DNA of 64,000 bases, taken from an uncultured Bacilli bacterium (GTDB taxonomy: Bacteria > Bacillota_I > Bacilli_A > RFN20 > CAG-826). Each line of letters opens with the position of its first letter. Within the stretch, counting starts at the first letter, position 1. The notes below the pieces were generated by a model, which saw only the letters and a list, made by a program, of their open reading frames with translations, did no database searches and was not told where the DNA came from. Below are positions 12,183 through 45,979 of the stretch, piece after piece. The DNA is taken from positions 1 to 64,000 of the forward strand of contig CALVSB010000004.1 in assembly GCA_944358895.1 (NCBI GenBank), given 5' to 3'. The position numbers were made by a program, and so were the translations under genes.

Positions 12183-12202
12183 GGCACCCCACGCCCAAAA
12201 AT

Positions 12203-12214
12203 ACCGATATCGGT
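12203..12214. promoter_or_regulatory. palindromic operator ACCGATATCGGT
   Basis: A perfect 12-bp palindrome upstream of the operon promoter. If transcription starts about seven bases after the -10 box, its centre is near -61, a position typical for activators that touch RNA polymerase from upstream. The half-site matches the TACCGATA repeats around the hydrogenase promoter at 44944-45023. Confidence 0.55.
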
Positions 12215-12244
12215 TACATTGAAAACCTAGGGGCCATCGCCAGT

Positions 12245-13285: not shown

Positions 13286-14345
13286 TCTTGAGCCGCCAAG
13301 CCTCCAGGTCGTCCTTCTCGACGACGCGGGTAAAGGTCGAAAGGTCGTGGAGGGTCGAGCGCCCTTCCTTGAAGAAGGTCAAGCTCCCTGATACGAGAGT
13401 TAGGAGGAGCCCGACGATGGCAACGTGCCAAAGCTCGAACTCGCTCCCGAGAAAAGCGAAGGCCGGAAGGGTAATCGACTGATAAGTCAAAAAGAAGAAA
13501 GGGGCAAAAACCACCGCATAAACCCCCTCCAATGTCTCGATTAAGCCCCGGGAAAGGATTTGGTAAACGCTTGGGGGATTTCCGCCATCGTCGACGACCT
13601 CAAGGCGGAGGACCATCTTGGAAAGAGTCCGTCCCCGCTTGAAAAGGAAGGGAAGGGCCATGTAATAGATGGCCGCGGTCAGGAAATAGGAAACGAGGGC
13701 CGCGCCCCCGCCGGCATAGCGGACTTCCTCATCGGCGCCGGCATAGGCGGAATATAGTTCGCGGTAAGGGAGCGTCTCGCTTCGCCCGATATCGACCCAG
13801 ATGTCCTGATAGACCGCGACGAAACCCGAAAGGGCCGCTTCGTAAAAAGAAGCCGTCTCGTCGTCCCTTTGCCCTTCGTCAAGGTAGGAAGAGCAGGCCT
13901 CCTTGGCCTCTTCACTCAATCCATAGGCCCCGTCTTCGCCAATCGCGAATGGACGCAGGTCTTGTAATTCAAGGAAACGCGCATTGTGCTCCTCTGGGCT
14001 CAGCCCTAGGTAGGAGGTGTCCGCGTAAAGGAGAAAATCCCCGTCAGAAGTCCCGTCGATTTGTCGGTTTATCCAATCTTCGCCCCGTTTTAGGGCCCCA
14101 TCGTCGGTCGGGATCGCCTCTCCCTCGCTCAAAAGGCGGGTCTTTCCGGCTTCCGCGGAGAGGCTATCGTAGGCGAGGGAAACGGCATCGGCTTTCCCAT
14201 AATAGTCGAAAATCGGGGCCCCTATCGCCGCAAAAACGATCATCGACGTCATCGCGACGATGCACATGTCGACGAAATAGCTTCCGAAGCGTCGACCCCG
14301 CCGCGCCGGCGGCAGGAAAGAGCGCTCCGCTCCCTCGACGCTCAT
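13269..14345 (-). CDS. RDD-family membrane protein, second of three
   Basis: A 358-residue RDD-family protein. The N-terminal signature RRFGSYFVDMCIVAMTSM is followed by a large soluble loop (about 50-215), then four hydrophobic segments with FKRGRTLSKMVLRLEVV in the position of the second RDD motif, and a short charged tail. Its start overlaps the stop of the upstream RDD gene as ATGA (14342-14345). The large, acidic, aromatic-rich loop between the first two helices is shared by all three products but diverges in sequence. Function unknown; a complex of the three products is a reasonable guess. Confidence 0.8.
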   Translation of the reverse strand: MSVEGAERSFLPPARRGRRFGSYFVDMCIVAMTSMIVFAAIGAPIFDYYGKADAVSLAYDSLSAEAGKTRLLSEGEAIPTDDGALKRGEDWINRQIDGTSDGDFLLYADTSYLGLSPEEHNARFLELQDLRPFAIGEDGAYGLSEEAKEACSSYLDEGQRDDETASFYEAALSGFVAVYQDIWVDIGRSETLPYRELYSAYAGADEEVRYAGGGAALVSYFLTAAIYYMALPFLFKRGRTLSKMVLRLEVVDDGGNPPSVYQILSRGLIETLEGVYAVVFAPFFFLTYQSITLPAFAFLGSEFELWHVAIVGLLLTLVSGSLTFFKEGRSTLHDLSTFTRVVEKDDLEAWRLKNGYYD

Positions 14346-44921: not shown

Positions 44922-44943
44922 TTCGATCCTCCTAGTAAAAAAA

Positions 44944-45023
44944 TACCGATAAAAATTGTAATATCGGTAATCTTCGATTACAACTGAACAAACCGGTAAT
45001 CTTTGGAGGCAAAATTACCGATA
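44944..45023. promoter_or_regulatory. operator array of the hydrogenase operon
   Basis: Four related motifs flank the promoter: TACCGATA (44944-44951, at the start point), TATCGGTA (44962-44969, between -10 and -35), the palindromic ACCGGT with its TAA flank (44992-44999, upstream of -35) and TTACCGATA (45015-45023). The first two form an inverted pair bracketing the -10 box. The same half-site forms the palindrome at 12203-12214. A redox- or fermentation-sensing repressor is a reasonable guess; the motif is not the classic Rex site. Confidence 0.65.
44955..44983 (-). promoter_or_regulatory. promoter of hydCBA
   Basis: TTGTAA (44978-44983), 17-bp spacer, TACAAT (44955-44960) on the minus strand, 34 bp upstream of the hydC ATG. 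It is embedded in the operator array. Confidence 0.75.
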
Positions 45024-45046: not shown

Positions 45047-45979
45047 TCAGGCCCCGAACTTCGCCTCGTCGATCTTAAAGGCTTCGATGAAGGTGGCCGG
45101 GAGGGCGATGCGCTCCTCGATCTTCTCAAGGTCTTTGTCCTCAAGTTCCCTGTCGAAGGGAAGGCGCGAGAAGTCCTCGGTCCCGTCGGAAATCGAGACA
45201 TAGAACTCCTTTCCGATGAAGGCGATGTCGAAGAGCCCGGAGAAATGTTTTTCAAGGTCCATGATCTTTTCCATGACGGCCGGGGTCAAGACGTAAAGGG
45301 CCCGGGTCGGATCGTCGCTCAGGACGGCGAACTTCTCGTCGAAGGCGATCGACTCGGTCTGAACGAGGATCAGTTCTCCCGGATCGACGGTCCCGTTTTT
45401 CTCCTTCTTCTCAACGATCCGGACGAGGCCGCCGAGGTCGCGCCCAAGGGCAAAGCGGTAAAAAGTACCCTCGGCATAGGTGACGTAATGGGTCCCGTTT
45501 TTGCTCTCTTGCTTCCGTTGAAGGACGTAATGGCCCTTCTCGAAAGGAATCCCTTCGTAGCGACCGGCCATGTAGAAGCTTCCAAAGTAGCGGGAAGGAA
45601 CGTCGAAGAAGCCGGCATAGTCGATGACCTGCTCTGCGATGGCCCGATCGGGATCGTAGACGATGTCCCCGAAAAGAGCCCGGCCCCGCTTCTCCTCAAG
45701 GAAGGCAAAGGCTTTCCTTTGGTAAGTCGAGCGAAAGCCCTTCCCATAACCATAAAAAACGAGAGCAACGGTGAAGGCGGCGGCCAGAGTCATGAAAAGG
45801 GCCACCAAAAGGCCGTCGGCGATGTAGTCGAGGCCGAAGAGGACGAAAACGGCAATGAGGGCGAGGACGCCGAAAAGGCCGATGACGAGGCCGACGTTCT
45901 TGAAGATGCTCCCTTTCTTGGCTCCCTTGGCCCGAAGGGCGGAAAGAGCCTTCTTGTCTTCTTCGCTTATGTAAGCCAT
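45047..45979 (-). CDS. DUF3137-like membrane protein, partner of LemA
   Basis: A 310-residue protein. After about 27 basic and polar residues come two adjacent hydrophobic segments (about 28-50 and 54-78), followed by a soluble domain rich in beta strands (FDVPSRYFGSFYMAGRYEGI, FALGRDLGGLVRIVEKKE) and ending in an acidic region. Layout and the neighbouring lemA gene match the DUF3137 group often encoded beside LemA. Biochemical role unknown. No ribosome site precedes the ATG; instead a terminator-like hairpin ends six bases upstream. Confidence 0.75.
   Translation of the reverse strand: MAYISEEDKKALSALRAKGAKKGSIFKNVGLVIGLFGVLALIAVFVLFGLDYIADGLLVALFMTLAAAFTVALVFYGYGKGFRSTYQRKAFAFLEEKRGRALFGDIVYDPDRAIAEQVIDYAGFFDVPSRYFGSFYMAGRYEGIPFEKGHYVLQRKQESKNGTHYVTYAEGTFYRFALGRDLGGLVRIVEKKEKNGTVDPGELILVQTESIAFDEKFAVLSDDPTRALYVLTPAVMEKIMDLEKHFSGLFDIAFIGKEFYVSISDGTEDFSRLPFDRELEDKDLEKIEERIALPATFIEAFKIDEAKFGA

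Follow-up and report, generated by a model that had tools for sequence, protein, structure and literature searches.

In S. aureus, the NADH/NAD+ sensor Rex uses the operator TTGTGAA-W4-TTCACAA, an 18-bp palindrome with a 7-4-7 layout, and is sensitive to the length of the spacer (PMC2883068). The operator of T. saccharolyticum, TTGTTANNNNNNTAACNN, is of the Clostridia type TTGTTAA-N4-TTAACAA with the same 18-bp 7-4-7 architecture; in this species, adhE and the hydrogenase operons hfsABCD and ech carry predicted Rex sites (PMC5886521). More generally, the targets of Rex, known or predicted, include rex, adhE, and hydrogenase operons (PMC5886521, PMC6018154), and fba is a target in S. pneumoniae (PMC6018154). 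Rex–DNA complexes solved for T. maritima (7WB3, PMC8836258), S. agalactiae (3KET, PMC8376106), and T. ethanolicus (3WGI) serve here as the reference for comparison. Common to solved Rex proteins are two domains, an Arg-Lys/Arg pair reading the DNA, a Gly-x-Gly-x-x-Gly motif, and a tyrosine that stacks on the nicotinamide. In ternary structures of T. maritima Rex, the G at arm position 3 and the base at position 5 are read by Arg48 and Lys49, and the wing enters the minor groove (PMC8836258). Ala47 of S. agalactiae Rex contacts bases 6 and 16 through water bridges (PMC8376106).

Here, we analysed the promoter of the hydrogenase operon hydCBA in a 64,000-nucleotide stretch of DNA from an uncultured Bacilli bacterium (hereafter, the window). 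Judging from the sequence comparisons below, its operator is probably a lineage-wide variant of the known Rex system, and a non-Rex regulator is unlikely. The proposed operator shares with the S. aureus and Clostridia-type operators the 18-bp 7-4-7 form, a 4-bp AT-rich centre, AA at the inner end of the arm, the overlap with promoter elements, and the placement at fermentation or hydrogenase promoters, but it has C at arm position 2 and G at position 4, and extra half-sites at hydC. As with the predicted sites of hfsABCD and ech in T. saccharolyticum (PMC5886521), it would place Rex at the promoter of an anaerobic hydrogenase; unlike those operons, hydCBA is of the A6 type and NADH-linked, with an extra half-site array and altered operator letters.

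The hydCBA promoter and its half-site array

The protein families found in hydC, hydB, and hydA point to an NADH-linked [FeFe] hydrogenase operon of the group A6 type (Table 1). HydA scores 764.1 bits against NF040763, one bit below the cut-off of 765, and passes the cut-off of TIGR02512. The upstream neighbour of hydC is a gene for a DUF3137 protein on the same strand (45047-45979), and a 125-bp intergenic gap before hydC holds all four array sites. An Rfam scan of the window returned a tRNA as its sole match.

Table 1. Features of the hydCBA locus (window coordinates)
Feature	Position	Strand	Remarks
18-bp Rex-type operator (site A, full)	44932-44949	-	+ strand CTAGTAAAAAAATACCGA = CTAGTAA-AAAA-ATACCGA
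Site A as first noted, TACCGATA	44944-44951	+	44944-44949 = end of the operator's right arm
Site B, half-site TACCGATA	44962-44969	-	within the -35/-10 spacer; + strand TATCGGTA
Site C, degenerate half-site	44991-44998	-	+ strand AACCGGTA; upstream of -35
Site D, half-site TACCGATA	45016-45023	+	upstream of -35
-35 box TTGTAA, hydCBA promoter	44978-44983	-	promoter scan; TTGTAA/TTGTTA kept in relatives
-10 box TACAAT, hydCBA promoter	44955-44960	-	17-nt spacer; TA[CG]AAT in most relatives
Ribosome-binding site AGGAGG, hydC	44928-44933	-	read from sequence; GGAGG invariant in relatives
hydC, NuoE-like [2Fe-2S] subunit, 160 aa	44439-44921	-	PF01257 7e-48
hydB, NuoF-like flavin/NADH subunit, 624 aa	42564-44438	-	PF01512, PF10589
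hydA, predicted NADH-dependent [FeFe] hydrogenase catalytic subunit, group A6 type, 599 aa	40760-42559	-	NF040763, TIGR02512

The original prediction had described four operator copies at 44944-45023, with an inverted pair around the -10 box and two further copies upstream of the -35 box. We confirmed the array, its coordinates, and this arrangement: the promoter scan found one sigma-70 promoter, TTGTAA-17-TACAAT, on the minus strand (0.2 expected from shuffles), with the copies at 44944 and 44962 on either side of its -10 box and sites C and D beyond its -35 box. Three of the four copies are exact, whereas the fourth (AACCGGTA) has two mismatches. None of 20,000 dinucleotide shuffles of the 125-bp gap reached three exact 8-mers. 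Over the whole window, TACCGATA occurs four times against 0.41 expected, a number reached in 0 of 100 shuffles, and the only copy outside the array lies at 12202. The flank ATTACCGATATT is identical at sites D and B. Elsewhere in the window, an element with overlapping arms, AATACCGATATCGGTTAC, lies between the genes for a sugar-type ABC ATPase and a membrane protein (12200-12217).

A left arm, CTAGTAA (44932-44938), had been overlooked, and it makes the 44944 copy, just 3' of the -10 box, part of an 18-bp palindrome. This palindrome spans the predicted transcription start and touches the ribosome-binding site, a position that resembles the sites in rex promoters. None of B, C, and D has a good partner at the N4 spacing, and given the spacer sensitivity of S. 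aureus Rex, these three sites may not be held by a Rex dimer. D and C form an inward-facing pair, TCGGTAA-N15-TTACCGG, with a spacer 11 bp, about one helical turn, longer than N4; such a distance would be compatible with cooperativity or a looser contact. Our guess is that the half-sites B, C, and D contribute affinity or cooperativity. Two other layouts were rejected. The A/B pair of a 26-bp Rrf2-type dyad (spacer 10) is not kept in more distant promoters, and the asymmetric TATCGGTA form predominates over a plain 8-bp palindrome TAYCGRTA.

Conservation at hydC promoters

We compared the upstream region of hydC in the window with those of 57 relatives. The word TATCGGTA/TACCGATA occurs 27 times in 18 of these 58 regions, against 0.3 expected. 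In an alignment of six hydC promoters, the window's own and those of five near relatives, all four sites are kept in G034, G030, and G033; G024 has a degraded site D and keeps A to C, including the degenerate C, while G002 keeps mainly D, plus an altered B (TATCGATA). More distant hydC promoters mostly have one site or none. Thus, the expected conservation in orthologous promoters holds for the motif, and the four-site array is restricted to a small clade comprising the closest relatives. These data also refute the reading of the repeats as chance, or as serving another purpose such as AT-rich promoter elements or RNA structure. The word is just 8 bp long and has about 25 copies in the genome, often inside genes, as such a reading would have it, but the shuffles never reproduced the array, the motif is kept in diverged promoters, and the palindrome is found order-wide, which leaves practically no likelihood for chance.

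TC(A/G)GTA is more frequent in the hydC promoters of genomes that have rex (11 of 18) than in those of genomes that lack it (2 of 17; p 0.003, with kinship ignored). One of the hydC promoters carrying TATCGGTA (L087) belongs to a genome in which no Rex was detected, and this assembly may be incomplete.

The Rex protein and the rex-adhE locus

The genome encodes one Rex only, a protein of 211 aa at the head of a rex-adhE operon. It scores 248.1 bits against the NF003994 equivalog model (cut-off 130), with PF06971 and PF02629 also above cut-off, and its closest solved structure is T. ethanolicus Rex (E 6e-37, PDB comparison); the AdhE that follows scores 1354 bits against a cut-off of 951. One of the 26 genomic copies of TACCGATA lies directly before rex, and the rex promoter has the motif twice, as CCGGTAAAGAAATACCGA, 22-39 bp before rex, and as TCGGTAAAAAAATATGGA. 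The same promoter contains a near-perfect CcpA-type cre site, TGGAAACGCTTTCA (L263, about 13780-13800), which is likewise present in G024, G030, and G034.

Aligned to the solved Rex chains, the protein has the NAD(H) site, with GAGHLG as the Gly-x-Gly-x-x-Gly motif and the nicotinamide-stacking tyrosine in LLSYPNF. The recognition helix EEQIRKDL aligns without gaps to ASQIRKDL of T. maritima Rex; the Arg-Lys/Arg pair is kept, and Glu-Glu stands in place of Ala44-Ser45. The glycine-rich wing GKRGxGY is absent: PGVPKKGRDL is found instead, so that the wing reads PGVPKKGR, with one extra residue, against FGKRGVGY in T. maritima, and related wings occur in the clade. The altered wing appears to be a feature of specificity, and the protein still clears the family models by a wide margin.

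The rex-adhE locus (L263, G000:C28, 8473-13692) continues with an [FeFe] hydrogenase-like protein that has a weak PAS match, and the corresponding locus of G024 (L265, G024:C6, 2509-10001) adds a SpoIIE phosphatase and a second hydrogenase-like protein. The genes after rex-adhE are probably an H2-sensing module placed in one operon with the NADH sensor. A second regulator, served for example by these hydrogenase-PAS/SpoIIE genes, could read B, C, and D beside Rex at A, in which case hydCBA would answer to both NADH and H2. This continuation of the locus and the missing N4 partners of B, C, and D speak for such an arrangement; however, one half-site word is common to the three sites, to A, and to the rex promoter sites, which points to one protein, and we regard a second regulator beside Rex as unlikely.

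An operator shared across the order

Our sample of the order comprised 192 genomes, of which 112 have a Rex domain above cut-off. Across the order, rex promoters share the 18-bp palindrome TC(G/A)GTAA-N4-TTAC(C/T)GA in the 7-4-7 layout of Rex, and many genera carry TCGGTAAAAAAATACCGA, TCAGTAAAAAAATACTGA, or TTGGTAAAAAAATACCGA about 20-35 bp before the rex start codon. Among the 37 genomes of the genus, the perfect form TCGGTAA-N4-TTACCGA has only four occurrences: three immediately precede rex (G023, G032, and G036) and one immediately precedes adhE (G016), a gene identified by the agreement of its N-terminal sequence with the confirmed AdhE of the rex-adhE locus. Palindromes with one mismatch occur, among other places, at rex of G024 and G033. 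We compared 31 spacings between half-sites in the rex promoters of other genera. At N4, 75% of TC(A/G)GTA half-sites are accompanied by a partner that agrees in 6 or more of 7 letters, a larger share than at any other spacing, and the mean match to half-site anchors is by far the best, 5.18 of 7 against 2.5. N4 likewise comes out on top for the hydC promoters (z 3.0) and for the genus-level set of rex promoters (z 8.5).

The arms of known operators, TTGTTAA/TTGTGAA, did not appear as the consensus; TC(G/A)GTAA is used throughout the order, in agreement with the earlier remark that the letters differ from the usual Rex consensus. We found no published description of TC(G/A)GTAA-N4-TTAC(C/T)GA as a form of the Rex operator in the mostly open-access literature that we searched. 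The motif sits at rex, rex-adhE, adhE, and hydCBA, with one candidate each before fba and rnfC, and the part of the original prediction that concerned control of fermentation is supported.

Its other part, a dedicated regulator distinct from Rex, is not supported: in the 7-4-7 layout, this motif occurs at the promoter of the sole Rex gene and at the rex, rex-adhE, and adhE promoters of relatives, and the regulator is therefore most likely Rex with a shifted specificity. A non-Rex protein with single or arrayed TATCGGTA half-sites as its binding sites and with hydCBA, rex-adhE, and rnfC under its control, Rex being just one of its targets, would account for the solitary half-sites B, C, and D, for direct repeats with an 8-bp period in several rex promoters, for the opposite-order pairs at rnfC, and for the motif in the L087 genome. 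Against it are the clean palindromes with Rex spacing at rex and adhE, only a few bases away from known Rex operators, the TCAGTAA and TTGGTAA forms that bridge this motif and those operators, and the fact that no other candidate regulator was found adjoining the motif. We consider a non-Rex regulator very unlikely. The tandem direct repeats ATCGGTAAATCGGTAA, found just before the rex start codon in seven promoters of the genus (G003 and six relatives), are not explained by a symmetric Rex dimer. Together with the reversed pairs at rnfC and at one other place and the L087 motif, they leave room for a second protein, to which we give a low probability.

The rnfC element, CTACCGATAAATCGGTAA (L264, G000:C12, 2234-2251), has its arms in the opposite order, TTACCGA-N4-TCGGTAA, about 20 bp before the gene, and a similar element lies upstream of a lipoprotein gene (G000:C1:11298). 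A NarL-type 7-2-7 layout, TACCGAT-NN-ATCGGTA, is matched exactly at two genomic places, before rnfC and upstream of the lipoprotein gene. With one mismatch allowed it was found in 3 of the 37 genus genomes, no more than the reversed control, and was rejected as not conserved. Rex-type palindromes also follow the phosphoglycerate mutase gene in two genomes (L246, G001:C32; L250, G010:C49; at about 1501); the palindrome in G001 is directly upstream of fructose-bisphosphate aldolase, and the G010 contig ends shortly after.

A matrix from other genera recovers the hydC site

We built a weight matrix from 25 distinct sites in the rex promoters of genera other than that of the window. The score used to choose these sites was set by hand, with arm position 4 unconstrained and the other positions favoured, and a motif-free palindrome search of the rex promoters gave the same words. 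The sequence at 44932-44949 ranks first among the 63,983 18-mers of the window, with 17.8 bits against 6.7 for the next, a ranking that overstates the surprise, since shuffling the AT-rich upstream region itself yields a score as high in 7 of 5000 cases. Despite the shuffle result, an operator at 44932-44949 is consistent with its position, with the relatives, and with the shared word. At least 14 bits are reached in 17 of the 58 hydC upstream regions against 1.9 in shuffles, and this is the control that we relied on; at least 10 bits are reached in 24 of 58 upstream regions and 0 of 57 coding segments, a comparison unequal in base composition.

Residue 45 and arm position 4

In the alignment, Ala47 of S. 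agalactiae Rex corresponds to Ser45 of T. maritima Rex, and by our own mapping bases 6 and 16 correspond approximately to arm position 4. Glu45 is mostly found with G at arm position 4; in the lineages where residue 45 is Val, Ile, or Met and the operator is clear, the base is A (TCGATA, TAGATA). Rex proteins with Met, Ile, or Val45 and rex operators of these types were observed at L319, L280, L282, L267 (genus g5), L268, and L269 (f3 g36). A carboxylate facing the cytosine of the G:C pair would be a simple explanation for the pairing of Glu45 with G.

Residue 45 changes independently only twice in the tree of the C-terminal domain, a number with which an independent-pairs test cannot reach significance, and four Glu45 rows have no G in their best site. 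The two changes and the four exceptions make the link between Glu45 and G at position 4 a good hypothesis and not a result; we rejected covariation as proof of the specificity of residue 45 on account of the two changes, and kept it as a lead. More broadly, and still speculatively, the Rex of this order may have re-tuned its operator repeatedly, with residue 45 setting position 4 (G:C with Glu45, A:T with Val, Ile, or Met45) and the hydC half-sites, arrayed at about a helical turn, giving a steeper response to NADH. We regard this possibility as less likely than not. If it is true, a single-residue swap would re-target Rex.

Proposed regulation of hydCBA and its meaning

The array at hydCBA is very likely the control region for the lineage's own NADH/NAD+ sensor, Rex, with an operator that has drifted throughout an order of uncultured bacteria, and a new regulator is unneeded to explain it. 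Rex of this lineage would recognise TC(G/A)GTAA-N4-TTAC(C/T)GA rather than TTGTTAA-N4-TTAACAA. By analogy with known Rex biology, from which direct binding, repression, and release by NADH at hydCBA are taken, a NAD+-bound Rex dimer would occupy 44932-44949 over the transcription start and block RNA polymerase. A build-up of NADH would then release Rex and allow production of the hydrogenase, which would consume NADH and evolve H2, and the rex-adhE operon would be under the control of its own Rex too.

The usual way to predict a Rex regulon is to search for TTGTTAA/TTGTGAA arms, and in this order of Bacilli from gut and rumen such a search would overlook the entire regulon. With the classic arms, the hydrogenase genes would suggest a missing or new redox regulator, and the altered operator supplies the right search word for the Rex regulon of the order. 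The natural TCGGTA, TCAGTA, TTGGTA, and TCGATA operators, with the Rex variants paired to them, offer a test of how a winged-helix repressor may be retargeted while its regulon is kept.
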